Shown here one piece after another: positions 11,895 through 38,027 of a DNA stretch of 45,972 nucleotides. The stretch's first letter is position 1; each line of letters begins with the position of its first letter. The translations under genes and the position numbers were made by a program. Source of the stretch: Betaproteobacteria bacterium (lineage in GTDB: Bacteria; Pseudomonadota; Gammaproteobacteria; Burkholderiales; Casimicrobiaceae); assembly GCA_005882995.1 (NCBI GenBank), contig VBCY01000420.1, positions 1 to 45,972 on the forward strand, in the 5' to 3' direction. Below the pieces are notes generated by a model. It saw nothing but the letters and a program-made list of their open reading frames with translations. It had not been told where the DNA came from and searched no databases.

Positions 11895-12001
11895 GTCACG
11901 ACCAGTGACTGCGCTTCGATTGAGGTCCCCTCGACGGGGCGGAGTCTAGCAGCCTCGGTGGAGGCGCGGCTCAAGTACCGGTGTTGACGGATGTGAAGAA
12001 A

Positions 12002-17451: not shown

Positions 17452-19881
17452 ATGAACGCTGGAAAAGGACGACCCATCACGTGGGCGATGGCTGCCTTCT
17501 TTGCATCGAGCCTGCTCCTCGGGCATGACAGCGCGCTCGCTGATCCGCCCGCGCGCGTAGCCCGCCTGGCACACATCGATGGTGTGGTGAGTTTCTCACC
17601 GGCAGGCGAGGACGAATGGGCTCTCGCTCAAGTGAACCGACCCTTCGTCACCGGCGATCGCATCTGGTCCGACACCGGATCGCGTGCCGAGCTGCAGGTC
17701 GGAGAAGCATGGATGCGCATGGGCGCTTCGACCAGCACCACCATTCTCAACCTGGACGATCGCATCGCCCAAATCCAGCTCGCGCAGGGAGTGCTCAATC
17801 TCCGTGTGCGTCAGGTGTACGGCAATCAGCTCTATGAAGTCGATACACCGAATCTCGCACTGACAATCCGCCAAGCGGGCGAATATCGCATTGAGGTCGA
17901 TCCTGCCGGCAACACGACGACGATCGCTACGTTGAGGGGCAAGGCCGATGTTTACGGCGAGGGCGTCGCCTATGTCATAGGCGAGCGAGAGCGTTACCGC
18001 TTTGCCGGCGCCAGCCTGCGCGACTACGAATTGCTGGAGCTCGCTCCGCCGGACGAATTCGACCGCTGGGCTTTCGATCGGGACCGGCGGATCGACAACG
18101 CGGTGTCCGCGCGCTATGTGGCGCCTCAAGTGATTGGCTACTCTGATCTCGACGATTACGGCACCTGGTCCACTGTCGAGGGCTATGGAGCGGTCTGGGC
18201 GCCGACGCGGGTTGATTCAGGTTGGGCGCCGTACCGCTACGGCCACTGGGCATGGGTCGATCCGTGGGGATGGACGTGGATCGATGACGCACCATGGGGT
18301 TTCGCGCCGTTCCATTACGGGCGATGGGCATTCGTACGTGAGCGCTGGTGTTGGGTTCCCGGACCGCGCAGAGCACAGCCCGTCTATGCGCCGGCGCTGG
18401 TCGCCTTCGTCGGCGGCCGCAGCTTCAGTTTGTCTGCCTCTTCAGGACCTGGCGTTGCGTGGTTTCCTCTGGCGCCCGGCGAGGTCTATAGGCCGGCGTA
18501 CGCTGTGAGCCGCAACTATTTCACCAACGTGAATGTGAGCAATACGACCATCAACGTTAACGCGGTGGCGAACGCCTATAGCCGGCCAACGAGCAACGTC
18601 GTCTATCGTAACCGCGAGCGGCCGGGCTCGATCACTGCAGTGCCGACGACGGCATTCGCCGGCGGACATCCGGTCGCTCGGGCGGCGGTGCCTGTATCGC
18701 GCGAGATGATTGCCCGCGCACCCGTGACGCAAGCGCCTGCCGTCGCGCCCACGCGTGCGAGCGTTACCGGCGTCGCACCGCGAGCAGGGGCTGGACAAGT
18801 CGCTGCAAAGCCCCCTGAAACCGTGCTGTCTCGCCCAGTCATCGCTAGAACGGCTCCGCCCGCGCCCGCGGTGCCATTCGCTGCACGCGAATCCGCGCGG
18901 CCGGGCAGGGCGCTCGAGCCTACGCCTGGTGCCGCATCCAGGCCGGCCGCTCAAGCTTCCCAGCCCAACATCAAATTGGTAACGCCGACCACGCCCGCCG
19001 TGCCTCCCTCTAGAGCCGAAGGCGCAGCCGCACGAAGCCAGCCTCCGGCACGCGTTAGCACTGGCGCGCCTCCCCAAGGCCAGGAGCCCCAAGTCGGGGC
19101 GGCGCCTCCGCGCCAGGCCAATGTCCCGCGACCCCCGGAGGCGGCAAAGGCACTCCCGCAGGAAGCGTTCAGGCCGGCGCCGCAAGCCAATGTCCCGCGA
19201 CCGCCAGAGGCGTCGCGTGCGCTACCGCCGCAAGCCAGTGTCCCCAGGCCACCCGAGCTTCAAAGAGGAGCCCCTCAGGAAGCGCTGCGCGCTCCGCCGC
19301 GGCCGCCGGAAGCGGCGAAGGCGCCATCGCCTCAAGCGAATGTCGCAAGACCTGTCGAGCCGCATGTAGCTCCGCAAGAAATCCCGCGGACCCCATCGCC
19401 GCAGGCGAACGCTCGGAGACCGGAACCTCAGAGAGCAGCTCCGCCGGAGGCGCCGCGTGCTCCACCGCCGCAGGCTAGCGTTGCGCGACCGCCCGAAGCG
19501 CCGCGCGCTCCACCGCCTCAAGCCGTCGCGCCGCGACCCCAGGAAGCTCCCAGGGCATCGCCGCCTCAAGCGGTTGCGCCGCGACCCCAGGAAGCTCCCA
19601 GGGCTCCGCCGCCTCAGGCCGTTGCGCCGCGACCTCAGGAAGCTCCCAGGGCTCCGCCGCCTCAGGCCGTTGCGCCGCGACCTCAGGAAGCTCCCAGGGC
19701 AGCGCCGCCTCAGGCGATGCGCGCTCCACCGCCGCAGCCAACCGTGCAAAGAGCTCCGGAAGCACCTAAAGGACCTCCGCCTCAGGCGGCGCCGCCGCCG
19801 CCGGCTCAGCAAGCCGCCGCCGCGAAGCCCGCCGAAGCCCAGAGAAGCAAGGGCCAAGCAGAAGAGAAGAAGAAGGAATAA
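17452..19881 (+). CDS. Exported FecR-domain/DUF6600 protein with proline-rich repeat tail
   Basis: An 809-residue predicted exported protein. A signal peptide (AMAAFFASSLLLGHDSALA) is followed by a FecR-like beta domain at about 40-180 (FVTGDRIWSDTGSRAELQVG; LAQGVLNLRVRQ). Next is an aromatic-rich DUF6600 segment at about 235-310 (WAPYRYGHWAWVDPWGWTWI; APWGFAPFHYGRWAFV) and an Asn/Thr-rich stretch. The last ~350 residues are dominated by Pro, Ala and Arg and contain 16-residue repeats of the type PPPQAVAPRPQEAPRA. The function of this family is unknown; envelope or surface scaffolding is a reasonable guess. ATG 17452 is chosen because it directly precedes the signal peptide and has a purine-rich GGAAAC upstream. 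Confidence 0.88.
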   Translation: MNAGKGRPITWAMAAFFASSLLLGHDSALADPPARVARLAHIDGVVSFSPAGEDEWALAQVNRPFVTGDRIWSDTGSRAELQVGEAWMRMGASTSTTILNLDDRIAQIQLAQGVLNLRVRQVYGNQLYEVDTPNLALTIRQAGEYRIEVDPAGNTTTIATLRGKADVYGEGVAYVIGERERYRFAGASLRDYELLELAPPDEFDRWAFDRDRRIDNAVSARYVAPQVIGYSDLDDYGTWSTVEGYGAVWAPTRVDSGWAPYRYGHWAWVDPWGWTWIDDAPWGFAPFHYGRWAFVRERWCWVPGPRRAQPVYAPALVAFVGGRSFSLSASSGPGVAWFPLAPGEVYRPAYAVSRNYFTNVNVSNTTINVNAVANAYSRPTSNVVYRNRERPGSITAVPTTAFAGGHPVARAAVPVSREMIARAPVTQAPAVAPTRASVTGVAPRAGAGQVAAKPPETVLSRPVIARTAPPAPAVPFAARESARPGRALEPTPGAASRPAAQASQPNIKLVTPTTPAVPPSRAEGAAARSQPPARVSTGAPPQGQEPQVGAAPPRQANVPRPPEAAKALPQEAFRPAPQANVPRPPEASRALPPQASVPRPPELQRGAPQEALRAPPRPPEAAKAPSPQANVARPVEPHVAPQEIPRTPSPQANARRPEPQRAAPPEAPRAPPPQASVARPPEAPRAPPPQAVAPRPQEAPRASPPQAVAPRPQEAPRAPPPQAVAPRPQEAPRAPPPQAVAPRPQEAPRAAPPQAMRAPPPQPTVQRAPEAPKGPPPQAAPPPPAQQAAAAKPAEAQRSKGQAEEKKKE
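19513..19720 (+). repeat. 48-bp in-frame tandem repeat in the proline-rich tail
   Basis: Units starting CCGCCTCA at 19513, 19561, 19609 and 19657 are 48 bases apart and nearly identical; a fifth, degenerate one begins at 19705. Each codes for a 16-residue unit containing QAVAPRPQEAPRA. The period is a multiple of three, so changes in copy number preserve the frame. The similarity between neighbouring units suggests recent expansion or gene conversion. Confidence 0.9.
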
Positions 19882-23680: not shown

Positions 23681-24835
23681 ATGATCCGCGATCCCGACAC
23701 GCTTGCCTTGCTGACCGAAGCGATCGGCCGCTTCGTGCGCGAACAGCTGATTCCCAACGAATCTCTGGTTGCCGAAACCGATGCGGTTCCCGAGCCGATC
23801 ATCGCCGAGATGAAAAAGCTCGGATTGTTCGGACTTTCGATCCCCGAGGGTTACGGCGGACTCGGCCTCACCATGGAGGAGGAGGTCGAGGTTGCGTTTG
23901 TTCTGGGAGGAACCTCACCCGCGTTTCGTTCGCTCATCGGTACCAACAACGGCATCGGCTCGCAAGGGATCATTCTCGATGGAACAGCGGAACAGAAAGC
24001 GCGCTACCTTCCGCGGCTTGCGTCCGGCGAGCTGGTGGCCGCATTCGCACTGACCGAACCCGGTTCGGGTTCCGACGCTGCGTCTCTGTCGACCACTGCG
24101 CTTCCCCGCGAGGGTCACTACGTCCTCAACGGCACCAAACGTTACATCACCAACGCTCCTGAAGCGGGAATATTCACCGTGATGGCGCGCACCGACCCGG
24201 CGGACAAAAGTCCCCGTGGCATTTCGGCATTCATCGTGGAGCGCGGAACACCGGGCCTCGCGCTGGGTAGAGTCGACCGCAAAATGGGGCAGCGCGGAGC
24301 GCACACCTGCGACGTGATATTCGAGGATTGTCGCGTGCCTGCAACGCAGCTCCTGGGCGGTCGCGAGGGCGTGGGATTCAGGACCGCGATGAAGGTTCTC
24401 GACAAGGGAAGGCTGCACATCGCTGCGGTCTGCGTCGGCGTGGCTGAACGTATGCTCGCCGACGCGCTTGCCTACGCCATGGCACGCAAACAGTTCGGGC
24501 AGCCAATCGCCGAGTTCCAGTTGATACAGGCGATGCTTGCCGACAGCAGGACGGAAATTTACGCATCACGGTCGATGGTGCTCGACGCGGCACGCCGTCG
24601 TGACGATGGAAAGGACGTCACGACGGAGGCGGCATGCTCGAAGCTGTTCGCTTCGGAAATGTGCGGCCGCGTCGCCGATCGTGCGGTGCAGATCCACGGC
24701 GGCGCCGGCTACGTCAGCGACTACGCCATCGAGCGCTTCTATCGCGACGTTCGGCTGTTCCGGATCTACGAAGGCACCAGCCAGATCCAGCAATTGGTGA
24801 TCGCGCGCAACATGATCCGCGAGGCGAAGGGCTAA
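23681..24835 (+). CDS. Acyl-CoA dehydrogenase
   Basis: A 384-residue flavin-dependent acyl-CoA dehydrogenase. AFALTEPGSGSDAASLSTTA and YVLNGTKRYITNA are the two FAD/substrate signature stretches, RKQFGQPIAEFQLIQ is present, and the catalytic base is probably Glu364 in YEGTSQIQQLVIARNMI. It makes the trans-2,3 double bond in an acyl-CoA and passes electrons to ETF. The ATG at 23681 gives the normal family start; a much longer open frame upstream is antisense to the neighbouring dehydrogenase. With that divergent 3-hydroxyacyl-CoA dehydrogenase it forms part of an acyl-CoA degradation pathway; the chain specificity is not evident. Confidence 0.94.
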   Translation: MIRDPDTLALLTEAIGRFVREQLIPNESLVAETDAVPEPIIAEMKKLGLFGLSIPEGYGGLGLTMEEEVEVAFVLGGTSPAFRSLIGTNNGIGSQGIILDGTAEQKARYLPRLASGELVAAFALTEPGSGSDAASLSTTALPREGHYVLNGTKRYITNAPEAGIFTVMARTDPADKSPRGISAFIVERGTPGLALGRVDRKMGQRGAHTCDVIFEDCRVPATQLLGGREGVGFRTAMKVLDKGRLHIAAVCVGVAERMLADALAYAMARKQFGQPIAEFQLIQAMLADSRTEIYASRSMVLDAARRRDDGKDVTTEAACSKLFASEMCGRVADRAVQIHGGAGYVSDYAIERFYRDVRLFRIYEGTSQIQQLVIARNMIREAKG

Positions 24836-24865
24836 CAGCAACAACCAACACATGCGTGAGCTCCC

Positions 24866-25504
24866 ATGAGAGACTTTCCCGGCGTGATCCTGACGGCGAC
24901 GATATGGGCCTATTGGATCGGCATCGGCACGATGATCGTTCGCGTACGCCGGAAGGCGCGCCGTTCCGCCGGTCTCATTCCGCATCAGCCGCTGGAGCGC
25001 TTGATGTGGATCGTCTGGGTGCCGCTGGTCGGCGCGTGGAACGTGCTGCCGTACCTCTCACTCGTACGCCATCATCCGCTGCTGCGCGCGCCTGCGTTCG
25101 CGTTGGAAGATCCGGCGTACTCATCCCTTCGCTGGATCGCTGCGTTCACCGCTGTCGCGTGTCTCACGCTCACCGCCTGGTGCTGGGCGCGAATGGGCAC
25201 GAGCTGGAGCATGGCGATCCGCGAGCGCGACAGCGGCGAGCTCATCACCGACGGATTGTTTGCTCGGGTTCGACATCCCATTTACGCGCTGTCGATGATG
25301 CTCATGCTGTGCTCGGTTGTGATCGTGCCGACACCTCTCATGATGCTGGTCGGGGTGGCGCATCTGGCGCTCAATCAGCTCAAGGCACGCAACGAGGAAC
25401 GCCACCTTCTGAAGGTTCATGGCAGCGCTTATGCGCACTATGCACAGCGCACAGGTCGTTTTCTTCCGCGGCTCAGTACCGGAGAGGCCGAGCGAATACG
25501 CTAG
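24866..25504 (+). CDS. Isoprenylcysteine carboxyl methyltransferase-like membrane protein
   Basis: A 212-residue integral membrane protein with about five hydrophobic segments. The C-terminal motif pattern LITDGLFARVRHPIYALSM and NEERHLLKVHGSAYAHYAQRTGRFLP matches the ICMT/PEMT family of S-adenosylmethionine-dependent membrane methyltransferases; the RHP and EE pairs belong to the SAM-binding region. Bacterial members have mostly unknown lipid or small-molecule substrates. It starts 30 bases after the acyl-CoA dehydrogenase and ends two bases before the next gene, so it is transcribed with the hydrolase module downstream. Involvement in a lipid modification is suggested by that position only. 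Confidence 0.82.
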   Translation: MRDFPGVILTATIWAYWIGIGTMIVRVRRKARRSAGLIPHQPLERLMWIVWVPLVGAWNVLPYLSLVRHHPLLRAPAFALEDPAYSSLRWIAAFTAVACLTLTAWCWARMGTSWSMAIRERDSGELITDGLFARVRHPIYALSMMLMLCSVVIVPTPLMMLVGVAHLALNQLKARNEERHLLKVHGSAYAHYAQRTGRFLPRLSTGEAERIR

Positions 25505-25506
25505 CC

Positions 25507-26556
25507 ATGGACAAGCTGCACATCGGTTTGCGCGCCGCGATATGGAGCGCGGCCCTCGTCGTGGGAATGGCGATGCACGCCAGCGCGAGATCGGCGCCGG
25601 CCCCTGGATCGCCGCCGTCGTCGCAGCGTGCAATGGACGCGGCGAGCGAAGCACGTATTCTGGCGCTCGCACCCGAGCGCATCAGCGCCGCTGACGTACG
25701 CGATGTTCTCTCGCATGCGCCCGCGCCTCGAGTCATCTGCCTGCAAGGCAGTCTGGCGCCGATCAGCATGCGTCCTTTCGCCGAGTTTCTCATCGCCATG
25801 GGATATCCGGAATCGCAATTGCGCGATCCCGCCGATGGCAGCTTCTCGCACGGCAGTTTTGCGGACGGCGAAAAGCTGGCGGGAACGCTCGCCTGGTACT
25901 ACGAGAGCGAGGGGATGAGGCCGATGCTCATCGGGCACAGTCAGGGCGGGATGCTCGCCATCAGGGCGCTCTATGAACTCGCCGGCGAGTTCAACGACAA
26001 GATCACTGTCTGGAATCCCCTCACCGACCGCTCCGAGCAGCGCTCGACCATTGTCGATCCGATCGACGGCATCGAACGGCCCGTGGTGGGACTCAAGCTC
26101 TCCTATGTCACGGCGCTTGCCACCGGCAAACTGCCGCGCATCCTGCTCGGCCAGTGGACGATGGTGAGCCGTCTGCGAGCCATACCGGACACCGTTGAAG
26201 AATTCACCGGCTTCATCATCGAATGGGACGGCATCGCGGGCACCCCCCCGGGGAGCGAGGCTTATCACGCGATCGGCAGCGCCAAGGTACGAACGGTTTG
26301 GCTGCCCAATGCGACCAGCCACATCGCCATGCCGCAAGCGAAGGAGCTGGCGGTGAATCCGGTCACGCGCGCCTGGATCGATCACTATGTGCCAGGAGAA
26401 AACGCAGTACCTCCGACCGACGCCGGAATCGATGCTTCCAACATCCTGCACGCGGCCGATATCTGGTTCAGCGTGAAAAAGCATTGGTGCCTGGAAGCGC
26501 AAAAGCTCGTCCGCGCGCGTCAAGCGGCAAACCCGAACAAAGGCACCGGCGGATGA
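25507..26556 (+). CDS. Exported alpha/beta hydrolase, paralogue 1
   Basis: A 349-residue protein with an N-terminal hydrophobic export signal (AAIWSAALVVGMAMHASARS). The nucleophile elbow GHSQGG carries Ser145 in the alpha/beta-hydrolase fold, following WYYESEGMRPMLI. A histidine in TSHIAMP is the probable catalytic base. The C-terminal ADIWFSVKKHWCLEAQKLVRAR is nearly identical to the end of the protein encoded at 27851, so the two are paralogues separated by one gene. The substrate is unknown; an esterase or lipase acting in the periplasm is likely. The stop overlaps the next start as ATGA. Confidence 0.82.
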   Translation: MDKLHIGLRAAIWSAALVVGMAMHASARSAPAPGSPPSSQRAMDAASEARILALAPERISAADVRDVLSHAPAPRVICLQGSLAPISMRPFAEFLIAMGYPESQLRDPADGSFSHGSFADGEKLAGTLAWYYESEGMRPMLIGHSQGGMLAIRALYELAGEFNDKITVWNPLTDRSEQRSTIVDPIDGIERPVVGLKLSYVTALATGKLPRILLGQWTMVSRLRAIPDTVEEFTGFIIEWDGIAGTPPGSEAYHAIGSAKVRTVWLPNATSHIAMPQAKELAVNPVTRAWIDHYVPGENAVPPTDAGIDASNILHAADIWFSVKKHWCLEAQKLVRARQAANPNKGTGG

Positions 26557-27854
26557 AGCGACGGCTCAATCTTTTTCAGGCGATGATGCTGCGCTGGCGT
26601 GAGCTCTATCCCTACAGCGCAGTTCACACGCTGCGTGTCAGCACAACGCTGGACGTTGGGCGGCTGGAGCACGCCATCGCCGGCACGCTTGAAGCGCGCG
26701 GGCTGACCGGCCTGGAGATCGACATCCGTCGCCGGTGCTACGTTTGGCAAGGAGGACCGGCGACGCAAAGAGTCCATGTCGTCGCCGCGGCGGGACATCC
26801 GGGCGAAGCGCTGGATCATGAAATGGAACGCCAGCTCAACATGCCGTTTGCCGCGGACGGAAGCGTCGATCCCTTTCGTTTCTTTGCGGTGGGCGGAGCC
26901 TCTTCATTCCATCTCGGTCTCGCTTACGATCACGTTGTCGCTGGCGGGGATTCGATCGCACGTCTCTTGAAGAGCATCGCGGAGCGTTACGACGACGCAT
27001 CGCGGCCGGTTACACAACCGCCGAGCCCGTATGCGCCGACCTACGCAAAGCTGTTCTGGCGCGAAAGACGCGCCTTCCTTGGGGGATTGGGAACGCTGCC
27101 CAAGCTTGCCGCCGACTGCCGTTGCGCGGTGCGACCCCGCTACGCGTCTGCAGAGGACGGTTACAACGGGTTCATCCGCTTTCGAATCGATCCGCTGGGA
27201 CATGCGGCGCTCACCAGAGCCGCCGCGGCGTGGCAGGTGTCGTTGCAGGACCTGTTCCTGGCCATGACGCTGCTTGGCCTTTCACCGCTCTCGCCCGGGC
27301 GCACCAACGCCTCGCGCCGGCGCGAGATCGCGGTGGCTTCGATCGTGAACATCCGCGGCGAGCTGGGCTCTGAAGCCGCGCATGCCTTCGGTCCCTGCCT
27401 CGCTTCGTTTCGCGTTGCACATCCCGTCCCCGCTGAATCGAGCCTGCGGGAGCTCGCGCTCGCCGTGCGCGCTCAGAAGGAACGCATCAAACAGCGCAAG
27501 CTTTACCTGCAAACACTTCTGGCAATGGCGGTGGCTGGGTTGGAATGGCGCTTCCTGTCTCGTGAGCAACGCGCGAGATTCTTCGCCAAGCATTACCCTG
27601 TATGGGCGGGAGTTACTCCACTCAATCTGAATCCCATCTGGTCTGAAGAGGGTGAAAACCGCGGACCGCCCGAATACATACGCGCCGTTTCCACCGGGCC
27701 CCTGGCACCGATGATCGTCGCACTTACCAGCGGCGGCAGTACGATCAACGCGGGTATCTCTTTCCGGACCACGGTATACAGCCGGGAAGCGGTTGAACGG
27801 CTCGCTGCGGATATGCTGGATTCCATTGCACGTCTCGAACAGTGGGCAGCATGA
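26553..27854 (+). CDS. Condensation-domain-like acyltransferase
   Basis: A 433-residue protein resembling the chloramphenicol acetyltransferase/condensation superfamily (PapA- or wax-ester-synthase-like). The candidate active-site motif is YDHVVAGGDS around His127: the second His of HHxxxDG is kept, but the first His is Asp and the Asp is Gly. The C-terminal half has VNIRGELGSEAAHAFGPCLA and YSREAVERLAADMLDSIARL, patterns seen at the end of such enzymes. It is coupled by ATGA overlaps to an exported hydrolase on each side. A role in moving an acyl group between a carrier or CoA and an alcohol is inferred; the altered motif leaves activity open. Confidence 0.6.
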   Translation: MKRRLNLFQAMMLRWRELYPYSAVHTLRVSTTLDVGRLEHAIAGTLEARGLTGLEIDIRRRCYVWQGGPATQRVHVVAAAGHPGEALDHEMERQLNMPFAADGSVDPFRFFAVGGASSFHLGLAYDHVVAGGDSIARLLKSIAERYDDASRPVTQPPSPYAPTYAKLFWRERRAFLGGLGTLPKLAADCRCAVRPRYASAEDGYNGFIRFRIDPLGHAALTRAAAAWQVSLQDLFLAMTLLGLSPLSPGRTNASRRREIAVASIVNIRGELGSEAAHAFGPCLASFRVAHPVPAESSLRELALAVRAQKERIKQRKLYLQTLLAMAVAGLEWRFLSREQRARFFAKHYPVWAGVTPLNLNPIWSEEGENRGPPEYIRAVSTGPLAPMIVALTSGGSTINAGISFRTTVYSREAVERLAADMLDSIARLEQWAA

Positions 27855-28936
27855 AGCTGTACTCGACACTCAAGTGCGCGTTGCCTGCTTTGGCGATAGC
27901 ACTGCTTGCTGCGATATTCACCGCGGGCTGCGCAACGGCACCCGATCGCGGTCAAGCCGCGCCTCCATCCGCGGTACAAGGCGGTTCCGTTCTGCGATCG
28001 CTCGCGTTGGACCGCTCATTGGAAGAGCGGCTGCTTGCGCTCGATCCCGAACACATCACCGAGAGCGACGTCAAGAACACGCTCGCACATGTCCCGGCGC
28101 CGAGGATCATGCTGATTCATGGCGGGGTCTATGGCACACACCTGGTCATGGCAACCTTCGCCAGGTTTCTCATCGACCTGGGATATCCGGAGACGAAGCT
28201 GCGCGATCCCATCGATGGCGAGTACTCCTACAGCCCATACGGAGCGAGCGAACAGAGCGCCGGCGCGATCGCCTGGTATTACGAGCACGAGGGCGTGCGC
28301 CCGATGCTGATCGGTCACAGCCAGGGTGGCATTCAGGCGATCAAGATTCTCTACGAGCTGGTGGGCTCGTACCGCGACAAGATCGCCGTCTGGAACCCGT
28401 TTACGGGCACGGCCGAGAACCGTGCTTCGATCATCGATCCGCTCACCGGCGCTGACCGACCCGTGGTCGGCGGAGTATCGGTCGCGTACGTCTCAGTGGT
28501 CGGCGCGGGCGGCGCGGCGCTCCTTCTGCCGAATCAGTGGAGCATGGTCGAACGCCTGCACACCATTCCGAATTCGGTCGAGGACTTTACCGGGTTTTCC
28601 ATCAACGTCGACTTTGTCGCGTGGGACTTCGGCTCCACCGAAAAAGACCCCTACCAGCATAACGGCACGGCCGTGGTCCGTAACGTGCGCTTGCCCGGCA
28701 CCTACAACCACGTCTTCGTCCCGCTCACCGAGCGTGTCAACAACGATGCGGCTATGCGTGACTGGCTCAACGCTTTCGTGCCGGGTGGGGCGAACCCGGC
28801 GCCGCCAGGCGAGACCGAAGGCCGCGCCTTCAACGCGCTTTGGACCGCGGACGTCTGGTTCAGCGTCAAGAAGCACTGGTGCCTGGAAGCGCAGCGCCTG
28901 GTTCGCGCGAGAAGAGCATTGGTCGCGCAGCACTGA
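27851..28936 (+). CDS. Alpha/beta hydrolase lipoprotein, paralogue 2
   Basis: A 361-residue relative of the hydrolase at 25507, with the same GHSQGG elbow (Ser157) after WYYEHEGVRPMLI and the same C-terminal ADVWFSVKKHWCLEAQRLVRAR. Unlike its paralogue it begins with a lipoprotein signal: LLAAIFTAGC provides a lipobox with the acylated Cys, followed by ATAP, so it should be membrane-anchored. A histidine in TYNHVFVPL may complete the triad. It is coupled to the upstream acyltransferase-like gene by ATGA. The pair of differently localised paralogues suggests processing of one substrate at two envelope positions. Confidence 0.84.
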   Translation: MKLYSTLKCALPALAIALLAAIFTAGCATAPDRGQAAPPSAVQGGSVLRSLALDRSLEERLLALDPEHITESDVKNTLAHVPAPRIMLIHGGVYGTHLVMATFARFLIDLGYPETKLRDPIDGEYSYSPYGASEQSAGAIAWYYEHEGVRPMLIGHSQGGIQAIKILYELVGSYRDKIAVWNPFTGTAENRASIIDPLTGADRPVVGGVSVAYVSVVGAGGAALLLPNQWSMVERLHTIPNSVEDFTGFSINVDFVAWDFGSTEKDPYQHNGTAVVRNVRLPGTYNHVFVPLTERVNNDAAMRDWLNAFVPGGANPAPPGETEGRAFNALWTADVWFSVKKHWCLEAQRLVRARRALVAQH

Positions 28937-29060
28937 TCAAGTCCCGGCGCGACGTTGCTCTGGAGCGCGAAGCGTGCGAAAATTACGGTTTTTCTGAAGC
29001 GCGGCGCGGGCCGCCGGTCGATTTAAGTCCCGTGGCTCGCGATAAATCCTTCGTCGACCG

Positions 29061-29816
29061 ATGTCAGGCGCTCTCGCCGGAAAAGTTGCGCTCGTCACCG
29101 GCGCGTCGCGCGGCATCGGCCGCGCCATCGCGCGCAAGCTTGCGTCGGCAGGCTGCGACGTCGCGCTGAATTACTACAACAGTCACGACGAAGCGCAGGC
29201 CCTGTGCGCAGAGCTGCAGGCGAACGGCCGTCGAGCGCACGCTGTACAGGGCAGTGTCGGGGTTCCCGACAGCGTCGACGAGATGTTCTCGGAAGTGCGC
29301 AAGCATTTCGATCGTCTCGACATCGTCGTCAGCAATGCTGCCTCCGGGGTACTCAAGCCGGCGATGGAGATGTCGCTCAAGCACTGGCGCTGGTGCCTTG
29401 AAACCAATGCCTTCGCGCTCGATCTGCTTGCGCAACGCTCTGTGCCGCTGATGCGCGACGGAGGACGCATCATCGCCATGTCGAGCCTCGGCGCGCAGCG
29501 CGCGATGCCCGATTATGGCTTCATCGGCGCTTCCAAGGCGGCGCTGGAATCCCTGGCGCGCACGCTGGCGCAGGAGCTTGGACCGAAGAACATCCGCGTC
29601 AACGTGGTGAGCGCAGGCGTGGTCGATACCGATGCATTGGCCTATTTTCCCAACCGTGAGCAGCTCCTTGCGAATTTCGCCCAGCGTGCTCCCGCGGGAC
29701 CCGTGCTCACGCCGGACGACGTCGCCGGCGCGGTTTATCTGCTGTGCCTTCCCGAAGCAGCGATGATCAACGGACACACTCTGGTCGTCGACGGCGGCTT
29801 CTGCATCTCCGGATGA
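29061..29816 (+). CDS. fabL: Enoyl-ACP reductase III-like SDR (FabL type)
   Basis: A 251-residue short-chain dehydrogenase. TGASRGIG (13-20) binds NAD(P)H. The active-site spacing is Tyr152-x6-Lys159 (YGFIGASK), the spacing of enoyl-ACP reductases, not the Y-x3-K of ketoreductases. Long stretches match Bacillus subtilis FabL in pattern: VSNAASGVLKPAMEMSLKHW, MSSLGAQR and DTDALAYFPNREQLL. It should perform the last reduction of each elongation cycle, trans-2-enoyl-ACP to acyl-ACP. It leads a seven-gene fatty-acid-synthase-like operon and is coupled to the ketoreductase by ATGA. FabL is best known from Firmicutes, so its presence here is notable. Confidence 0.82.
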   Translation: MSGALAGKVALVTGASRGIGRAIARKLASAGCDVALNYYNSHDEAQALCAELQANGRRAHAVQGSVGVPDSVDEMFSEVRKHFDRLDIVVSNAASGVLKPAMEMSLKHWRWCLETNAFALDLLAQRSVPLMRDGGRIIAMSSLGAQRAMPDYGFIGASKAALESLARTLAQELGPKNIRVNVVSAGVVDTDALAYFPNREQLLANFAQRAPAGPVLTPDDVAGAVYLLCLPEAAMINGHTLVVDGGFCISG

Positions 29817-30583
29817 GCTCACCCATGCTTGTCGATTCCGGGCTCGCCGGAAAGGTCGCGATCGTGACCGGAGGCAGTCGCGGCATCGGCCGCGCCATCG
29901 TCGAGCGGCTCGCCGACGAAGGCGCCGACGTGACGTTCTTTTTTCGCGACAACGCAGCGGCGGCCGAGGAGGTTGTTGTGGCGGGTCGCGTCGCCGGCCG
30001 CACAGTCGCTTCAGAACAGGTCGACGTGCGCGACGTCAAAGCGTGCGCAAGCGGCGTCGAGCGGGTGGCGGAGCGCACCGGACGCGTCGACATCCTGGTC
30101 AACAACGCCGGGCTCATTCGCGATAACCAGCTCGCGGCGATGGACGACGAAGACGTGGAACTGGTGCTCGACACCAACATTGGCGGGGTGTTCAACATGA
30201 CGCGGGCGGTCGTGCCGCACATGATCGTGCAGCGCTCCGGCCGGATCATCAATGTTTCATCGGTCGCGGGAGAGAAGGGCGGTCGAGGACAGACCAACTA
30301 CGCGGCGAGCAAGGGAGCCATCAATGCCTTTACGCGTTCGCTCGCAGTCGAGCTGGCGCCGCGCAAGGTGACCGTGAACTGCGTAGCGCCAGGGGTGATC
30401 GACACCGAGATGTCACAGGCGGTGCGCGACATGGCGGGCGAGCAAGTGACTTCACGCATACTGCTCAAGCGCTACGGCAAGCCGGAGGAAGTCGCCTATG
30501 CGGTCTGCTTTCTCGCCTCGCGCTATGCCGACTACGTGACCGGACAGATTTTTGCCGTCGACGGCGGCTTCAAGATGGAGTGA
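29813..30583 (+). CDS. fabG: 3-oxoacyl-ACP reductase (FabG type)
   Basis: A 256-residue classical short-chain dehydrogenase with TGGSRGIG (19-26), NNAG (97-100) and the triad Ser150, Tyr163, Lys167 in SS...NYAASK (Y-x3-K). It reduces 3-oxoacyl-ACP with NADPH. ATG 29813 is chosen because it overlaps the preceding stop as ATGA; an internal ATG at 29825 is possible. Being clustered with a dedicated carrier protein and ketosynthases, and not with fabD or acpP, it is probably a pathway-specific paralogue of the housekeeping FabG. Confidence 0.9.
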   Translation: MSSPMLVDSGLAGKVAIVTGGSRGIGRAIVERLADEGADVTFFFRDNAAAAEEVVVAGRVAGRTVASEQVDVRDVKACASGVERVAERTGRVDILVNNAGLIRDNQLAAMDDEDVELVLDTNIGGVFNMTRAVVPHMIVQRSGRIINVSSVAGEKGGRGQTNYAASKGAINAFTRSLAVELAPRKVTVNCVAPGVIDTEMSQAVRDMAGEQVTSRILLKRYGKPEEVAYAVCFLASRYADYVTGQIFAVDGGFKME

Positions 30584-30588
30584 ACGAA

Positions 30589-31017
30589 ATGGGGCAGAGC
30601 GAAATCAGCAAGGAAGAAATCATGGCGGTCTATCCCAAGGTTGCCGAAACCATGGCGGACGCGCTCGGATGCGACGTCGAAGATGTGAAGCTCGACGTGT
30701 CGCTGATCGAAGGGCTCGACGCCGAATCGATTGACTTTCTGGACATGGTCTTCCGGCTGGAGCGTGCGTTCAAGATCAAGATTCCGCGCGGCAAGATCGT
30801 CGAGAATGCGCGAGGCGATCTTCCCGAAGCGGAGTTCGAGCAAAAGGGCATCGTCACGGAAAAGGGCCTCGCGCAGCTCAAGACATATTTGTCGGAACTT
30901 CCTGCTGACCGCTTCAAGGTTCCGATGAAGGTTGCCGATATTCCGCGCTTGTTTACTCCCGAAACCTTCTGCAAGCTCGTGGTTCGTGCGCAAAAGGAAG
31001 CGCAGGCGGCGGCGTGA
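30589..31017 (+). CDS. Long acyl carrier protein resembling AcpXL
   Basis: A 142-residue carrier protein. The phosphopantetheine attachment serine is Ser47 in GLDAESIDFLDMVFRLE, followed by FKIKIPRGKI. The SIDFLDMVF...FKIKIP pattern is much closer to rhizobial AcpXL (SLDFLDIVF...FGIKIP), the carrier for very-long-chain acyl groups of lipid A, than to AcpP. A C-terminal extension of about 60 residues (through LPADRFKVPMKVADIPRLF) makes it longer than either. ATG 30589 has GGAG eight bases upstream; a GTG at 30580 overlapping the fabG stop is the alternative. The last codons and stop belong to a 115-bp tandem duplication. It should be primed by the AcpS-type domain encoded at 34730. Confidence 0.85.
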   Translation: MGQSEISKEEIMAVYPKVAETMADALGCDVEDVKLDVSLIEGLDAESIDFLDMVFRLERAFKIKIPRGKIVENARGDLPEAEFEQKGIVTEKGLAQLKTYLSELPADRFKVPMKVADIPRLFTPETFCKLVVRAQKEAQAAA

Positions 31018-31235
31018 GCAGTGAGCAGGGGCCCCGTGCTTTCCGGGGATGCGAACGTCCGCGAATCGCCGCCGGCGGCCGACACGCAACGGGACAGTCG
31101 AAAGCAGGGGGCTGAAGGAGGCGGCGGCGTGAGCAGTGAGCAGGGGCCCCGTGCTTTCCGGGGATGCGAACGTCCGCGAATCGCCGCCGGCGGCCGACAC
31201 GCAACGGGACAGTCGAAACCAGGGGGCTCAAGGAG
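31006..31235. repeat. 115-bp direct tandem duplication after the ACP gene
   Basis: Positions 31006-31120 and 31121-31235 are two copies of a 115-base unit that differ at only a few bases (AAAGC versus AAACC, CTGAA versus CTCAA). The unit begins with the last Ala codons and TGA of the ACP gene. It includes the palindromes GGGGCCCC and GCCGCCGGCGGC and ends with AAGGAGG. The second copy's AAGGAGG is the only evident ribosome site for the following dehydratase-like gene. I see no coding potential within it. Confidence 0.92.
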
Positions 31236-31248
31236 GCCGCAGGCCTGA

Positions 31249-32112
31249 ATGTCGGCAGGTATAGCACGCATGGATCAACATTTCGCCGCGTTTTCCTTTG
31301 TCGATCGCATCACGGAGCTCGAGCCGGCGAAGCGTGCGCGGGGCGAATTCGCCGTGCCCGGGGATATCTCCGAGTTTCCTCGATGCCTCATCGCGGAAGC
31401 GGTGGGGCAACTCGCTGCCTGGGTATCGATGAGCGCGATCGCTTTTCGCGGACGCCCGGTCGCGGCGCTCGCTGCGGAGACGCGGTTTCACGGAGACGTT
31501 CGCCCCGGCGAGAGCCTCACGCTCGGCGTCGAAATCGACAGCTGCGACGACGAAGCGGTGGCGTACGGCGGTTGGGCGAAGGTGGGCGACAGGCTGGTGA
31601 TCGAGCTGGAAAACTGTCTCGGCCCGATGCTCCCCGCAAGCGACTTCGACGATCCGCAGGCGCTGCATCGACGATTCGAGCTGCTGCGTAGCAACGGCGC
31701 TCCGCGAGGACGCTTTCAGGGCGTCAAGCTGGCAGCGCCGGAAGTAACCGCGCACGACCCCGGTCGCTCGATCGCTGCGACACTCAAGGTGCCGACGACA
31801 GCGCCGTTTTTTGCCGACCATTTTCCGCGCCGGCCGGTCTTTCCAGCGACCCTGCTGCTCGATGCGCAGATCCGCCTGGCGACGCAGCTGGCTCGCGAAG
31901 CTGCCCAAGCTGGAAACGGCAAGCTTGCATTGCAACGCATGAACAACGTCAAAGTGCGCTCCTTCACCAACCCGGGGCAGACACTCGAGATCGGTGTCGA
32001 AGCGACGCCACGCGAAGGAGCGCTGCGCGTCGCGTTGTCGGCGCGCGCCGGTGGCAAGTCGGTGGCGACGGCTCGCGTCGAGTTTGGCGAGGCCAAGGCG
32101 ATCGTCGCATGA
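31249..32112 (+). CDS. Double-hotdog dehydratase-like protein
   Basis: A 287-residue protein with two hotdog-fold halves. The C-terminal half has DHFPRRPVFPATLLLDAQ, matching the FabZ/FabA active-site helix with His191 and an acidic Asp205 where FabZ has Glu. The N-terminal half has LIAEAVGQLAAW with Glu50 but no HFP histidine. It probably dehydrates 3-hydroxyacyl-ACP, as FabZXL does in rhizobia, although that protein is a single hotdog. ATG 31249 follows AAGGAGG contributed by the tandem repeat; ATG 31270 (MDQHFAAFSF) is a credible alternative. The stop overlaps the ketosynthase start as ATGA. Confidence 0.75.
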   Translation: MSAGIARMDQHFAAFSFVDRITELEPAKRARGEFAVPGDISEFPRCLIAEAVGQLAAWVSMSAIAFRGRPVAALAAETRFHGDVRPGESLTLGVEIDSCDDEAVAYGGWAKVGDRLVIELENCLGPMLPASDFDDPQALHRRFELLRSNGAPRGRFQGVKLAAPEVTAHDPGRSIAATLKVPTTAPFFADHFPRRPVFPATLLLDAQIRLATQLAREAAQAGNGKLALQRMNNVKVRSFTNPGQTLEIGVEATPREGALRVALSARAGGKSVATARVEFGEAKAIVA

Positions 32113-33425
32113 GCTCTTCCCGCCGCCGCGTCGCCATCACCGGGCTTGGCCTGGTGACACCCGTTGGGAATGACGTCGCAACGAGTTGGACGGCGCTGCT
32201 TCACGGCCGCAGCGGCGTAGCGCCGATCACGCTGTTCGACGCCAGCGGCTTCAGCACTCGCATCGCGGCCGAAGTCAAGAACTTCAGCGACAACGCCATC
32301 ACCGCTGAGCGCAAGCTGCTCAAATTCACCAATCGTCCGCACCGCTTCGCGCTCGCCGCCGCAGAGCAGGCGATCGCTGACGCAGGGATTGCGCCCACGC
32401 CAGAGACGGCCGAACGCTGGGGGTGCTCGGTCGGCACCGGCATGATGGGCGTCGCCTATGAGGATCTTGCCGCGATTCAGCGACACTCCGCGGCCGACGG
32501 CGAGTTGCACCCTGATCGACTTATCGGCGATGACGCCGCCAACGATCCATTGGTGTTTTGCCGCAGCCAGTCCACGGCGGGCGTGTCGCTGCTGACCCGA
32601 CGCTTCGATATTCGCGGCTACGCGACGTCGGTGCACACGGCCTGCGCCTCCGGCGGACAGGCGATTGGTACGGCATTGAAACTCATTCGCCGCGGCAGCG
32701 TCGATTACGCGCTCGCCGGGGGATTTGATTCCATGATCAGCCCAGTGGGGCTCGCCGGATTCTGCCTGCTCTCCGCGGTTTCTGCGGATAACGACACGCC
32801 GGAGCGTGCGAGCCGGCCCTTCGATCTCACGCGCAACGGCTTTGTGCTCGGCGAAGGGTCCGGCTTCGTGGTGCTCGAGGAGTGGGAGTCGGCGCGCCGT
32901 CGCGGCGCACGCATTTATGCCGAGCTCGCCGGTGACGGCAACTCGCTCTCTTCGTACCGGATCACCGATTCGCCGCCGGATGGCGACGGGCCGATCCAGT
33001 CGATGCGCGCGGCGCTCTGCGACGCGGGTGCGTCGCCGGACGAGGTCGACTACATCAACGCCCACGGAACTTCCACCTTCATGAACGACAAGAGCGAATC
33101 GGCGGCGATCCACGCGGTGTTCAGTGACAAGACCGATCGCGTCTCGGTGAGCTCGACCAAGAGCACCATGGGCCATCTCATCGCCGCGGCGGGGGCGGTC
33201 GAAGTCGTTGCCTGTGCGCTCGCCATCCATCACGGTGAGATGCCCGTCAATGCCAACCTGGTGGAACGCGATCCCGACTGTAATCTCAATCTGGTCGCTG
33301 GCGGTCCGCAGCGACGCAGGCTGCGCATGACGCTTTCCAATTCCTTCGGCTTCGGGGGCTCGAATAGCTGCGTCGCGTTGCGCAATCCCGAAGAAGTCGA
33401 CGGCGCCGGCGCGCAGCGCGCCTGA
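32109..33425 (+). CDS. Beta-ketoacyl-ACP synthase (FabF type), copy 1
   Basis: A 438-residue thiolase-fold condensing enzyme with the complete triad Cys179 (HTACASGG), His319 (NAHGTST) and His356 (STMGHLIAAAG) and the conserved Lys351. It starts RRVAITGLGLVTPVGNDV and ends with the FabF signature NSFGFGGSNSCVAL. It should condense malonyl-ACP with a growing acyl chain. Two ketosynthases side by side are also found in the rhizobial very-long-chain locus (FabF2XL and FabF1XL). It is coupled to the dehydratase gene by ATGA. Confidence 0.93.
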   Translation: MSSSRRRVAITGLGLVTPVGNDVATSWTALLHGRSGVAPITLFDASGFSTRIAAEVKNFSDNAITAERKLLKFTNRPHRFALAAAEQAIADAGIAPTPETAERWGCSVGTGMMGVAYEDLAAIQRHSAADGELHPDRLIGDDAANDPLVFCRSQSTAGVSLLTRRFDIRGYATSVHTACASGGQAIGTALKLIRRGSVDYALAGGFDSMISPVGLAGFCLLSAVSADNDTPERASRPFDLTRNGFVLGEGSGFVVLEEWESARRRGARIYAELAGDGNSLSSYRITDSPPDGDGPIQSMRAALCDAGASPDEVDYINAHGTSTFMNDKSESAAIHAVFSDKTDRVSVSSTKSTMGHLIAAAGAVEVVACALAIHHGEMPVNANLVERDPDCNLNLVAGGPQRRRLRMTLSNSFGFGGSNSCVALRNPEEVDGAGAQRA

Positions 33426-33443
33426 AGCCAAAGCGAACCCCGC

Positions 33444-34724
33444 ATGTCCGCAGAGCGAGTTTTCATCACCGGCACCGGCGCCGTGTGCGGGACCGGAATG
33501 TCGCCGGAAGCGATTCTGTCGGCGGTGCTTGAAGGGCGCTCGGCCATCGCTCCCATACAGCAATGGGATACCAGCGGATGGCCGGTGACCATCGCCGCCG
33601 AGATGCCGGACTTCAACCCGCGGTCGCTGGTCGAGGATCGCAAGCTGCACAAGTTGATACGGCGCACCGATATGTTCGGCATCTATGCGGGGAGCAAAGC
33701 CATCGATGCAGCCGGCTTCACCGCCCACCGCGACGCGCTCGACAGTGCTGGCGCAGCCACGTTCTCCGATCGCAGCGGCGTCTATGTCGGCTCAGGCGGT
33801 GGCGCATACAACACTCAATACGAATACTTTCCGCTGATGAGCGAGGCGGCTGGCGACATGGTCGCCTTCGGCCGCGATCTTGCCAGCGTTGTGAATCCGA
33901 TGTGGCTGCTGCGCACGCTGCCCAACAACGTGCTTTGCCACGTCGCCATCAAGTACAACCTCAAGGGTTCCAATGCGTGCATCACCAACCACAGTTGCGG
34001 CGGCACACTGGCGGTGGTCGAAGCCGCCGAAGCATTGCGCCAGGGCGAGGCCGATCGCGCCCTCGCAGTGGGGCACGATGCACTGATCGAGCCGCAGATG
34101 GTGCTCTACTATCATCAATGCGGACTGCTCACGCAGGATACGATCCGTCCTTTCGATGCTCGGCGCAGCGGGAGCGTTTTCGGAGAGGGAGCGGGCGCGC
34201 TTGTACTGGAAACGCAGCGCGCCGCGACGGACCGCAATGCAACCGTCGTGGGCGAAGTGCTCGGCGGTGGCTGCGCGGCGGAGGCGCTGGGCCTTCTCGC
34301 CATTCGCGACGATGGCAACGGACTCGAGCGCGCCATCCGCGAGGCGCTCGTCAATTCCAAGATGGCGCCCGACGATATCGGCATGATCGTCGCGCACGGC
34401 AACGGTACGCCGCAGTCGGATGCCTCAGAGGCGGCAGCGATCCGCAGCGTCTTCGGCGATGGCGACAAGGCGCCGCCGGCAACGGCCTTCAAGTGGTCGA
34501 TCGGGCATCTCATCGCGGGGGCGGGAATCGTCGAGACGGTGCTCGCGCTTGGATGCCTGCGCCAAGGAGTCGTTCCCGGCGTGGCAACGTTGAGCAATCC
34601 GGACCCGCAGTGTGCCGGCGTGCGCGTGATGGCGGGCGAGCAGAACCCGCGCAACAACACCGCGCTCATCCTTTGTCGCGGCTTCGCCGGGACCAACGCG
34701 GCGCTCATCGTACGTTCGCTTTGA
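33444..34724 (+). CDS. Beta-ketoacyl-ACP synthase-like protein, copy 2
   Basis: A 426-residue condensing enzyme more divergent than its neighbour. The triad appears complete: Cys185 in TNHSCGGTLAV, His318 in AHGNGTP and His355 in IGHLIAGAG. Unlike FabF, the end reads RGFAGTNAALIV instead of FGFGGTN, and an insertion GSGGGAYNTQYEYFPLMSEA precedes the nucleophile. It is probably catalytic, perhaps with different chain-length preference, or it may pair with copy 1 as a heterodimer as in KS/CLF systems. It begins 18 bases after copy 1 and ends 5 bases before the next start. Confidence 0.88.
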   Translation: MSAERVFITGTGAVCGTGMSPEAILSAVLEGRSAIAPIQQWDTSGWPVTIAAEMPDFNPRSLVEDRKLHKLIRRTDMFGIYAGSKAIDAAGFTAHRDALDSAGAATFSDRSGVYVGSGGGAYNTQYEYFPLMSEAAGDMVAFGRDLASVVNPMWLLRTLPNNVLCHVAIKYNLKGSNACITNHSCGGTLAVVEAAEALRQGEADRALAVGHDALIEPQMVLYYHQCGLLTQDTIRPFDARRSGSVFGEGAGALVLETQRAATDRNATVVGEVLGGGCAAEALGLLAIRDDGNGLERAIREALVNSKMAPDDIGMIVAHGNGTPQSDASEAAAIRSVFGDGDKAPPATAFKWSIGHLIAGAGIVETVLALGCLRQGVVPGVATLSNPDPQCAGVRVMAGEQNPRNNTALILCRGFAGTNAALIVRSL

Positions 34725-34729
34725 CGTTG

Positions 34730-35989
34730 ATGGCGGATATCGCCGACACAGCGGCCAGTGAGGCGACGCGGTGCGGCATCGACACGGTCGAAGTGCGACG
34801 CATCGAACGGCTGCTCGCAGAGACCGCGTCTGAGGACTTGAACAGGATCTTCTCAGCGCAGGAGCTCTCCGACAGCGGCGAGGGGCCTGGCCGGGCAGCG
34901 AGCCTCGCGGCGCGCTTCGCCGCCAAGGAGGCGTGTGCCAAGCTCTTTCCGCGCGAGCTCGCGCTGGGTTTGATCGAGCCCATCGACTTCTCGGTGGCGC
35001 GCGATGGCTACGGCGCGCCGCAGGTCGTATGCAGTGCCAGGGCGCAGGCGCTCATCGATCAGCAACGCATTCGCGCCATTGTCGTCTCGCTCACCCACGA
35101 TCGCGTCAGCGCCTCGGCCGTGGCGCTGGCGTTGGCGGCCCGCTCTGCTGCTCCAATCGCCGGCAGGATTCTGTATTACGCGCTGCCGGTGCGCCGGGCG
35201 GTCATTCTCGAGAACCTTCGCCGGGTGTTCGGTGCGGGTGTGCCGGAGGGCGAGATCAAGCGCTTGGCGCAAGCGCATTACGCACATCTGTGGCGACTCT
35301 TCGGTGAGTTCCTGCGTTTTCGCTGGCTCTCTGCGGCGCAGCAAGCGGCGATCGTGCGCACCGAAGTCGACGCGCTCAAGCACGCACTCGGAGAGGGCAA
35401 GGGAGTCCTGATTCTGACGGGGCACTTTGGCAATTTCGAAGTCGCGACCATCGCCGGGCTCGCCCGGTTTCCTGAAATGCAGGGCCGCATTCACTTTGTG
35501 CGGCGAGCAATCAAGCCGCGCTGGCTCGATGCTCTGGTCACTCGCCGTTTCAGGCAGGCGGGGTTCGGAGTGATGTCCAAGCGCGGATCACTCGATGCGA
35601 TTCTCGAGCGTCTCGCGGCGGGAGATGTCATCGTGTTCCCCTTCGACCAGCACGCGAGCCCCCCTGACGGCATCGAGGTGGAGTTTTTTGGTCATCCGGC
35701 ATGGACCTTCAAGAGTCTCTCCATCATGGCGCTCGCCACTGGCGCGCCGGTGCTGCCGGCTGCGAGCTGGCGCGAGAGCGACGGGCATCATGTGCTGCGC
35801 TTCGAGGAGCCGTTGCCGCCCATTCACGACGAAAATGTCAACGAGGAAATCCGCCGCAACACGCGCGCCTACAACGCAGCGCTGGAGCGTCTCATCCTGC
35901 GTCATCCTGAGCAATGGTTCTGGGTGCACCGGCGATGGAAGCAAGTGGTGCGACGCAGACCGGCTGCAAAATCTACACGGTACTATTGA
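34730..35989 (+). CDS. AcpS-type phosphopantetheinyl transferase fused to LpxL/HtrB-type acyltransferase
   Basis: One 419-residue frame encodes two recognisable enzymes. Residues 14-137 match holo-ACP synthase: CGIDTVEVRRIERLL with Asp18, FSAQEL, RFAAKEACAKLF with Glu67 (49 residues after the Asp, as in AcpS) and VVSLTHDRVSASAVAL. About 145-410 match lysophospholipid/lipid A acyltransferases: LTGHFGNFE with the H-x4-E pair His232/Glu237, VFPFDQHASPPDGIEVEFFGHPA and HPEQWFWVHRRWK. The join has no stop, gap or start between the halves, and the usual N-terminal membrane helix of LpxL is replaced by the AcpS domain. It could prime the neighbouring ACP and then move its acyl chain to a lipid. ATG 34730 is chosen; TTG 34721 is a weaker option. 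Confidence 0.85.
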   Translation: MADIADTAASEATRCGIDTVEVRRIERLLAETASEDLNRIFSAQELSDSGEGPGRAASLAARFAAKEACAKLFPRELALGLIEPIDFSVARDGYGAPQVVCSARAQALIDQQRIRAIVVSLTHDRVSASAVALALAARSAAPIAGRILYYALPVRRAVILENLRRVFGAGVPEGEIKRLAQAHYAHLWRLFGEFLRFRWLSAAQQAAIVRTEVDALKHALGEGKGVLILTGHFGNFEVATIAGLARFPEMQGRIHFVRRAIKPRWLDALVTRRFRQAGFGVMSKRGSLDAILERLAAGDVIVFPFDQHASPPDGIEVEFFGHPAWTFKSLSIMALATGAPVLPAASWRESDGHHVLRFEEPLPPIHDENVNEEIRRNTRAYNAALERLILRHPEQWFWVHRRWKQVVRRRPAAKSTRYY

Positions 35990-36048
35990 GTGTTTCCTAA
36001 CTACGTGACATGGTTGCAATTCGGATGAGCTGGGCGTCACCCCTAACC

Positions 36049-36067
36049 CCTCTCCCGGCGGGAGAGG
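36049..36067. repeat. CCTCTCCC-type intergenic hairpin
   Basis: CCTCTCCCGGCGGGAGAGG at 36049-36067 is a perfect 8-bp-stem hairpin with a GGC loop, followed by the smaller palindrome GCGCGATAGCGC at 36071-36082 and GGTGAGGG. This CCCTAACCCCTCTCCC-style element recurs between genes in many proteobacterial genomes. It may end the fatty-acid operon transcript. The rest of the 155-base gap holds no visible gene. Confidence 0.6.
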
Positions 36068-36144
36068 AGTGCGCGATAGCGCGGGTGAGGGTCAAACGTC
36101 ACTCATAGGCTGATCACCACGTAACAACGGGAAGGAGCGACGCC

Positions 36145-37094: not shown

Positions 37095-38027
37095 ATGTTA
37101 GAGAGCCTGCCCAACCTTCTGGCGCCGAAGTATTTCGTGGTGTACGCGTTCATTGCGTTGGCTGTTTTCGTCCACTACCGCGGCCGCGTCCGTCATCGCT
37201 TCTACCGTCAGCTTACCGATCACTCGACGTTCATGGCACCGTACAACCTGCTGATGTACATGTTCTCGGCGGTTCCGAACAAGCCCTTCATCGAGATCGA
37301 CAAGTTTCCAGAGCTCAAGAAGTTGAGCGACAATTGGCAGACGTTGCGTCAGGAGGCGCTGCAACTCTTCGACGAGGGTTACATCCGAGGCGCGGCGAAG
37401 TACAACGATCTCGGCTTCAATTCCTTCTATCGTCGCGGCTGGAAGCGCTTTTACGTCAAGTGGTACGACGATCCTTTGCCCTCGGCCAAAGCGCTTTGCC
37501 CGAAGACGGTGGAACTGGTGCAATCGATTCCGTCGGTGAATGCCGCCATGTTTGCGCTGTTGCCGCCCGGGGGCAATCTCGGAAGGCATCGAGATCCCTT
37601 CGCTGGTTCATTGCGTTATCACCTGGGACTGTCGACTCCTAATTCGGAGGAATGTCGCATTTTTGTGGACGGGCAGCCGTATCACTGGCGCGATGGCGAA
37701 GCAGTGATCTTCGACGAGACATTCATCCACTGGGCGGAGAACAAGACCAAGCAGATGCGCGTGATCCTGTTCTGCGACGTGGAGCGGCCGCTGACCAGCC
37801 GGATCATGGCCAAGATCAATCACTGGTACAAGAACACGGTGATCCGCGCGAGCCAGACAGACAACATGGAAGGTGACCGCGTCGGCGTCTTGAATCACAT
37901 CTTCAGCGTCGCCTACTACCTTCGCGTTCCGGGCAGGGCGCTCAAGCAAAAGAGCCGGCGTGCCTACTACGCGACAAAGTGGCTGTTGGTCCTTGCGCTG
38001 GCTTACCTGATTATTGTGTACGCTTGA
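37095..38027 (+). CDS. lpxO: LpxO-like lipid A hydroxylase (Asp/Asn beta-hydroxylase family)
   Basis: A 310-residue Fe(II)/2-oxoglutarate-dependent dioxygenase with a membrane helix at each end (about 12-27 and 293-309). The order HYRGRVRHRFYRQLTDHSTF then YMFSAVPNKPFIEIDKFPEL is characteristic of LpxO. Iron ligands are His165 and Asp167 in GRHRDPF and His212 in FIHWAENKT, and MRVILFCDVERP supplies the region of the 2-oxoglutarate-binding Arg. LpxO adds a 2-hydroxyl group to a secondary acyl chain of lipid A at the inner membrane. Its closeness to an acyltransferase and an AcpXL-like system supports a shared role in acyl-chain tailoring of an envelope lipid. Confidence 0.88.
   Translation: MLESLPNLLAPKYFVVYAFIALAVFVHYRGRVRHRFYRQLTDHSTFMAPYNLLMYMFSAVPNKPFIEIDKFPELKKLSDNWQTLRQEALQLFDEGYIRGAAKYNDLGFNSFYRRGWKRFYVKWYDDPLPSAKALCPKTVELVQSIPSVNAAMFALLPPGGNLGRHRDPFAGSLRYHLGLSTPNSEECRIFVDGQPYHWRDGEAVIFDETFIHWAENKTKQMRVILFCDVERPLTSRIMAKINHWYKNTVIRASQTDNMEGDRVGVLNHIFSVAYYLRVPGRALKQKSRRAYYATKWLLVLALAYLIIVYA

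Follow-up and report, generated by a model that had tools for sequence, protein, structure and literature searches.

Two described systems share much of their gene content with the locus analysed here, which lies in a 45,972-nt stretch of DNA (the window, to which all coordinates refer; contig VBCY01000420.1 of assembly GCA_005882995.1, Betaproteobacteria bacterium, family Casimicrobiaceae) and joins two exported hydrolases (A and C), a condensation-fold protein (B) and an ICMT-like methyltransferase to a fatty-acid synthase operon. The aryl polyene (APE) cluster of Escherichia coli CFT073, apeA-R, has a product that goes to the outer membrane, according to the available excerpts of its description (PMC8253772). 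As in our locus, these excerpts list a ketosynthase (KS) with a chain-length-factor partner, a ketoreductase, dehydratases and an acyl carrier protein (ACP), and the LpxL-like ApeD, the methyltransferase ApeB and the lipoprotein ApeA have counterparts here as well (PMC8253772). The rhizobial acpXL-lpxXL cluster, in the part of its description available (PMC11901934), shares a private ACP, a dehydratase, two KS genes and an LpxL-type acyltransferase, all in one direction. Gene content, gene order, co-occurrence, predicted folds and conserved residues of our locus suggest a pathway, so far undescribed, for making and completing an unusual envelope lipid. No description of this gene set was recognised among titles and abstract openings of the open-access literature, which does not show its absence from print.

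Gene order and co-occurrence with a second synthase

In the window, the genes of the locus are encoded on one strand in the following order:

24866..25504, +, ICMT-like membrane methyltransferase (Pfam ICMT E 3.5e-9, PEMT E 5.3e-7)
25507..26556, +, A: alpha/beta-hydrolase with an N-terminal signal-like segment and no lipobox (assigned triad S145, D241, H272)
26553..27854, +, B: stand-alone protein of condensation fold (residues 126-134 read DHVVAGGDS)
27851..28936, +, C: alpha/beta-hydrolase, lipobox FTAG-C (assigned triad S157, D254, H287)
29061..29816, +, short-chain dehydrogenase/reductase (SDR) of FabL type, enoyl-ACP reductase (NCBIfam FabL; Y-x6-K active site, YGFIGASK)
29813..30583, +, FabG-type ketoreductase (3-oxoacyl-ACP reductase models; Y-x3-K, NYAASK; start taken at an ATG within a longer open reading frame)
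30580..31017, +, ACP of 145 aa with a C-terminal extension (Pfam PP-binding E 3.7e-8)
31249..32112, +, tandem hotdog dehydratase (Pfam FabA E 4.5e-17)
32109..33425, +, KAS1: FabF-like ketosynthase, Cys-His-His
33444..34724, +, KAS2: partner of KAS1, ketosynthase-like, with Ser in place of the Cys (resembles a chain-length factor)
34730..35989, +, AcpS (phosphopantetheinyl transferase) fused to an LpxL-type acyltransferase (Pfam ACPS E 2.5e-10, Lip_A_acyltrans E 1.2e-35)
37095..38027, +, LpxO-like hydroxylase, an optional member (NCBIfam LpxO 455.5 bits), separated from the LpxL gene by a zinc peptidase gene

The initial annotation had described A, B and C as two paralogous hydrolases around a condensation-like acyltransferase, coupled by ATGA and followed on the same strand by a fatty-acid operon. 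The coordinates it gave for the three open reading frames (ORFs) are exact; A and B share ATGA at 26553-26556, and B and C at 27851-27854, as stop and start read from the sequence, both junctions being 4-base overlaps, and the operon begins at 29061, 124 bp past C. The module is wider than three genes and includes the ICMT-like gene, which ends 2 bp before A and adjoins the trio in all 22 genomes where the contig reaches that far. This gene, the status of the operon as a second synthase, the Cys-less KAS2 and the AcpS::LpxL fusion had all been missed. The 4-base overlap is common among relatives, not universal: B and C overlap by exactly 4 bases in 9 of the 18 loci with a start found (2 further loci lacked one), as do A and B in 8 of 14, start codons having been chosen nearest the previous stop, which biases these counts toward overlaps. 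A promoter and terminator scan of 24500-36600 returned nothing above shuffled-sequence chance.

The genetic association of the trio with the synthase is well supported. Within the same 60 genomes (our own included), the A/C family was found in 18, B in 17 and the operon ACP in 19, and all 18 A/C genomes lie among the 19 ACP genomes, G045 being the one with the ACP and no A/C. In G020, the single A/C genome where no match to B was obtained, the contig stops next to C. All searches together gave 24 distinct A/C genomes (those 18 plus G748, G1077, G1078, G788, G789 and G791), every one of which encodes synthase genes. In 21 of them FabL is the next gene downstream of C and on the same strand, the exceptions being G024, where the contig ends, G788, where the two are unlinked, and G789, where the order differs. 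Hydrolase A is present in 17 of the 23 genomes that can be judged. Across the compared stretches, the block from ICMT to LpxL is constant, and no further gene recurs beside it in the 22 stretches compared.

The strongest independent support for a shared pathway comes from the Nitrospirota genome G789. One of its contigs carries, in one direction, FabG, AcpS, an unassigned short ORF, a hotdog protein, a KS without the Cys, LpxL, B, C and ICMT, again with an ATGA overlap between B and C. A second contig encodes an SDR that resembles FabL but scores under the FabL cut-off, along with a long ACP, a KS, another KS that lacks the Cys, and a hotdog protein. This set is about 29-48% identical to that of the window. 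Because G789 appears to keep the same functions in a split and reordered form, which is hard to explain otherwise, trio and synthase probably belong to one pathway.

Carriers are a few uncultured bacteria. A wider search with the ACP gave matches in 6 of 399 genomes of the order, and an A/C profile search of family f11 in 3 of 98. A broad distribution was rejected, as the A/C profile matched only our own genome among 398 of its phylum and only G789 among 245 of its phylum, in scans that scored limited candidates per genome and could miss divergent copies. Plasmid-borne spread was likewise rejected: a tblastn search with C found nothing in 72,556 plasmid records.

The genome also encodes a housekeeping FabF (contig C84) and FabI (C207) that pass their cut-offs, and the window operon is therefore a second, complete type II synthase. 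The product of 29061-29816 scores 344.7 bits, over the FabL equivalog cut-off of 328. In the hotdog dehydratase, the C-terminal half has the His and Asp, and the N-terminal half lacks the His. A chain-length-factor partner is defined by the lack of the catalytic Cys. KAS1 and KAS2 form such a pair: the Cys of KAS1 is present in 23 of 25 rows, the remaining two being partner-type copies of G789, and in KAS2 the same column holds Ser in 21 of 22 rows and Thr in one. Both proteins score best against FabF-type enzymes among solved structures. The ACP reaches 35.5 bits against PRK06508 (cut-off 83), which we take to be the AcpXL model. At the junction of the ACP and dehydratase genes, two 115-base tandem copies (31004-31233, 98% identical) begin in the last codons of the ACP, a pattern not found in any fetched locus beyond the window; the gap between the two genes is 231 bp here versus about 6-70 bp in most relatives.

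Proteins of the trio

As initially proposed, A and C are paralogous, aligning over 332 columns with 46% identity (E 5e-104); C has the lipobox FTAG-C, and A a signal-like segment lacking one. Neither reached the cut-off of any Pfam or NCBIfam model, and searching both sequences against solved structures yielded no reliable hit. For C, the AlphaFold model (pLDDT 85.1) is an alpha/beta-hydrolase that matches Bacillus subtilis lipase A with Z 14.8 and a root mean square deviation (rmsd) of 2.6 over 158 aligned residues. Among aligned A and C proteins (only ORFs >250 aa), the nucleophile Ser is conserved in 35/35, the assigned Asp in 35/35 and the His in 34/35 with one gap; the fold, tested on C, and a Ser-Asp-His triad in order are thus both present, the catalytic acid (D254 in C, D241 in A) being assigned by chain order, with D196 of C as an equally conserved alternative. 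C also has a conserved long C-terminal helix (329-360) ending in a KKHWCLEAQ-type motif.

By pattern match, a lipobox follows the signal segment in the window C and in 20 of its 23 relatives; of the remaining three, two are truncated at contig ends, and that of G004 has a full N-terminus without lipobox. The pattern also fits one of 11 A relatives (G008). A 36-row tree with the Nitrospirota C as root groups the A proteins in a single clade (100/99, 12 rows) nested among C-type rows, so A is apparently an old duplicate of C without the lipobox. Additional copies of the C hydrolase occur outside the trio in G002 and G004 (L058, L059, L060 18385-19515, L062), three of them in G002.

B matches Pfam Condensation with E 3.6e-5 and 23.1 bits, under the curated gathering cut-off of 30.6, though its AlphaFold model (pLDDT 86.7, pTM 0.90) shows the full two-lobed condensation fold, which bears out the initial assignment. 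Residues 1-433 match condensation-fold chains with Z 38.6 to 24.6, so the fold extends over the whole protein. The closest is AzeD (8s6l; Z 38.6, rmsd 2.9, 414 residues aligned), the next reaching 30.9, and other matches include condensation domains with Z near 30, PapA5 (25.5) and WS/DGAT (24.9).

The motif of B is DHVVAGGD (residues 126-133) in place of HHxxxDG, as the initial annotation had read it, with the register set by alignment to AmbE. In 17 rows of B (ORFs >400 aa only, leaving out G003 with an in-frame stop and G024 at a contig end, and with the broken B of G791 absent from the set), H127, G132, D133 and S134 are invariant. HHxxxDG is not intact: its second His is kept in 17/17 rows, its first is Asp in 16 and Tyr in one, and its Asp position is Gly, Ala or Ser in all 17. 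B therefore appears to have retained its likely general base (H127) and lost the HHxxxDG Asp. In some carriers B is interrupted, by one in-frame TAG in G003 (L034/L061) and by frame breaks in the L033 copy of G791, reflecting either assembly errors or decay.

Proposed pathway and alternatives

We propose, with a probability of about 0.6, that the trio and the ICMT-like enzyme form the half of an envelope-lipid pathway that tailors and places the lipid, for which we infer the reactions and their order, the acceptor, the product and, from signals only, the locations. KAS1 with the Cys-less KAS2, FabG, the hotdog dehydratase and FabL would assemble an acyl chain on the private ACP, itself activated by the AcpS domain; the presence of FabL argues for this chain being reduced and not a polyene. 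At the inner membrane, the LpxL domain would transfer it to a lipid acceptor. Cytoplasmic B would then perform a second acyl transfer, to an ester or amide, with H127 as base and an ACP-bound chain as its likely donor, after which the ICMT-like enzyme would methylate the head group. Following export, periplasmic A and the outer-membrane lipoprotein C might cut or transfer ester-linked acyl groups via their Ser-Asp-His triads, giving the final lipid. More tentatively, the product may be a new class of envelope lipid, in which the chain of the private KS/Cys-less-KS/FabL system is placed by LpxL, B with its rewritten site (HxxxxGDS) joins a second group, the ICMT-like enzyme methylates it, and the periplasmic and outer-membrane hydrolases finish it as transacylases, on the model of PapA5 and Ag85 of mycobacteria.

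The initial annotation had suggested that the trio may process or transfer the product of the operon; all 24 A/C genomes do hold synthase genes, and the contrary pattern, trios routinely without them, was not seen. Several observations weigh against our proposal. The link does not hold in the other direction, since G045 and G671 contain the synthase with no A/C match anywhere in the genome, so that its product needs no trio; furthermore, in G788 the ICMT-B-C genes and the synthase lie on separate contigs. As most carriers come from one family, the counts are not independent events. In addition, the conserved block contains no exporter gene in the 22 stretches compared, and the best lipase match spans about 158 of the 361 residues of the C model.

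The LpxL domain and the LpxO-like gene point, not decisively, to lipid A or a similar lipid. It is conceivable, if rather unlikely, that the chain made by the operon is a secondary acyl chain of lipid A, very long or hydroxylated, like that of rhizobial acpXL-lpxXL, and that the trio and ICMT modify lipid A itself, which is a narrower form of our proposal. The order ACP-hotdog-KS-KS-x-LpxL does resemble acpXL-fabZXL-fabF2XL-fabF1XL-adh-lpxXL, and the ICMT-like protein weakly matches LmtA (lipid A 1-phosphate methyltransferase), but with 26.3 bits of 325 it is far under the cut-off. The LpxO-like protein scores 455.5 bits over its full length, below the NCBIfam equivalog cut-off of 500, and its gene, present in the stretches of 6 genomes, is absent from most. 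Among solved structures, the LpxL domain also resembles the mycobacterial phosphatidylinositol mannoside (PIM) acyltransferase, so its acceptor need not be lipid A.

That B instead works like AzeD, carrying out a dehydration or a similar reaction on an intermediate bound to the ACP, and that the hydrolases act in release, seems improbable. AzeD, whose structure carries the title of a dehydratase, stands well clear as the nearest fold, but it shares only 15% identity with B and retains the motif Asp that B has lost; moreover, release of a cytoplasmic ACP product is not open to A and C, as both have export signals. Very improbable, in our judgement, is that the trio scavenges external esters, to which exported hydrolases would be suited, and neighbours the synthase by chance, belonging rather with the acyl-CoA dehydrogenase and 3-hydroxyacyl-CoA dehydrogenase genes just upstream in the window. 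This catabolic assignment was rejected because the position of these beta-oxidation-type genes is not conserved: the latter occurs in 4 of the 22 compared stretches (some of which end earlier) and the former, by the same clustering, in the window alone, whereas the constant block runs from ICMT to LpxL.

Elsewhere in the window, a class 3 lipase gene (Pfam Lipase_3, E 1.2e-16) lies on the opposite strand a few kb downstream of the cluster (39413-40324, -). At 19441-19722, in a stretch of 71% GC with strong AT skew, lies an array of tandem repeats (periods of 24/48 bases) in which Pro/Ala-type codons abound. AT skew is likewise strong across the 3 kb of 9001-12000, with values of 0.11 to 0.33.

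Comparison with known systems

If true, the proposed envelope-lipid pathway would be a rare route to a non-standard envelope lipid in Gram-negative bacteria, and would include two exported hydrolases from a family below all Pfam/NCBIfam cut-offs as well as a natural variant of the condensation-fold active site. Its near-perfect co-occurrence with one distinctive ACP should make it easy to find in metagenomes.

Individual proteins resemble, and differ from, characterised enzymes. PapA5 and WS/DGAT transfer long-chain acyl groups to alcohols. They share the fold of B (1q9j, Z 25.5; 6chj, Z 24.9), but are structurally less similar to it than AzeD or ordinary condensation domains, and B lacks the HHxxxDG Asp. 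AzeD of Pseudomonas aeruginosa (8s6l) is, like B, a stand-alone protein, with PHIIADG where B has DHVVAGGD. C shares its core fold and Ser-Asp-His order with Bacillus subtilis lipase A and other alpha/beta-hydrolases, differing in its long conserved C-terminal helix and in lacking any Pfam/NCBIfam match over cut-off.

At the level of whole clusters, the locus differs from acpXL-lpxXL, as far as the available text of PMC11901934 goes, in having its own FabG, FabL and AcpS together with ICMT-A-B-C, and no alcohol dehydrogenase. Membership of the APE clusters was considered and rejected because the gene content differs: relative to the excerpts available for apeA-R, the conserved block contains no acyl-ACP synthetase, RND transporter, LolA-like or DUF3261 gene, judged from the 22 stretches compared and from Pfam matches of the neighbouring genes. 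Furthermore, its KAS1 and KAS2 are FabF-like, and it has in addition the FabL enoyl reductase, the condensation-fold protein B and the two exported hydrolases.

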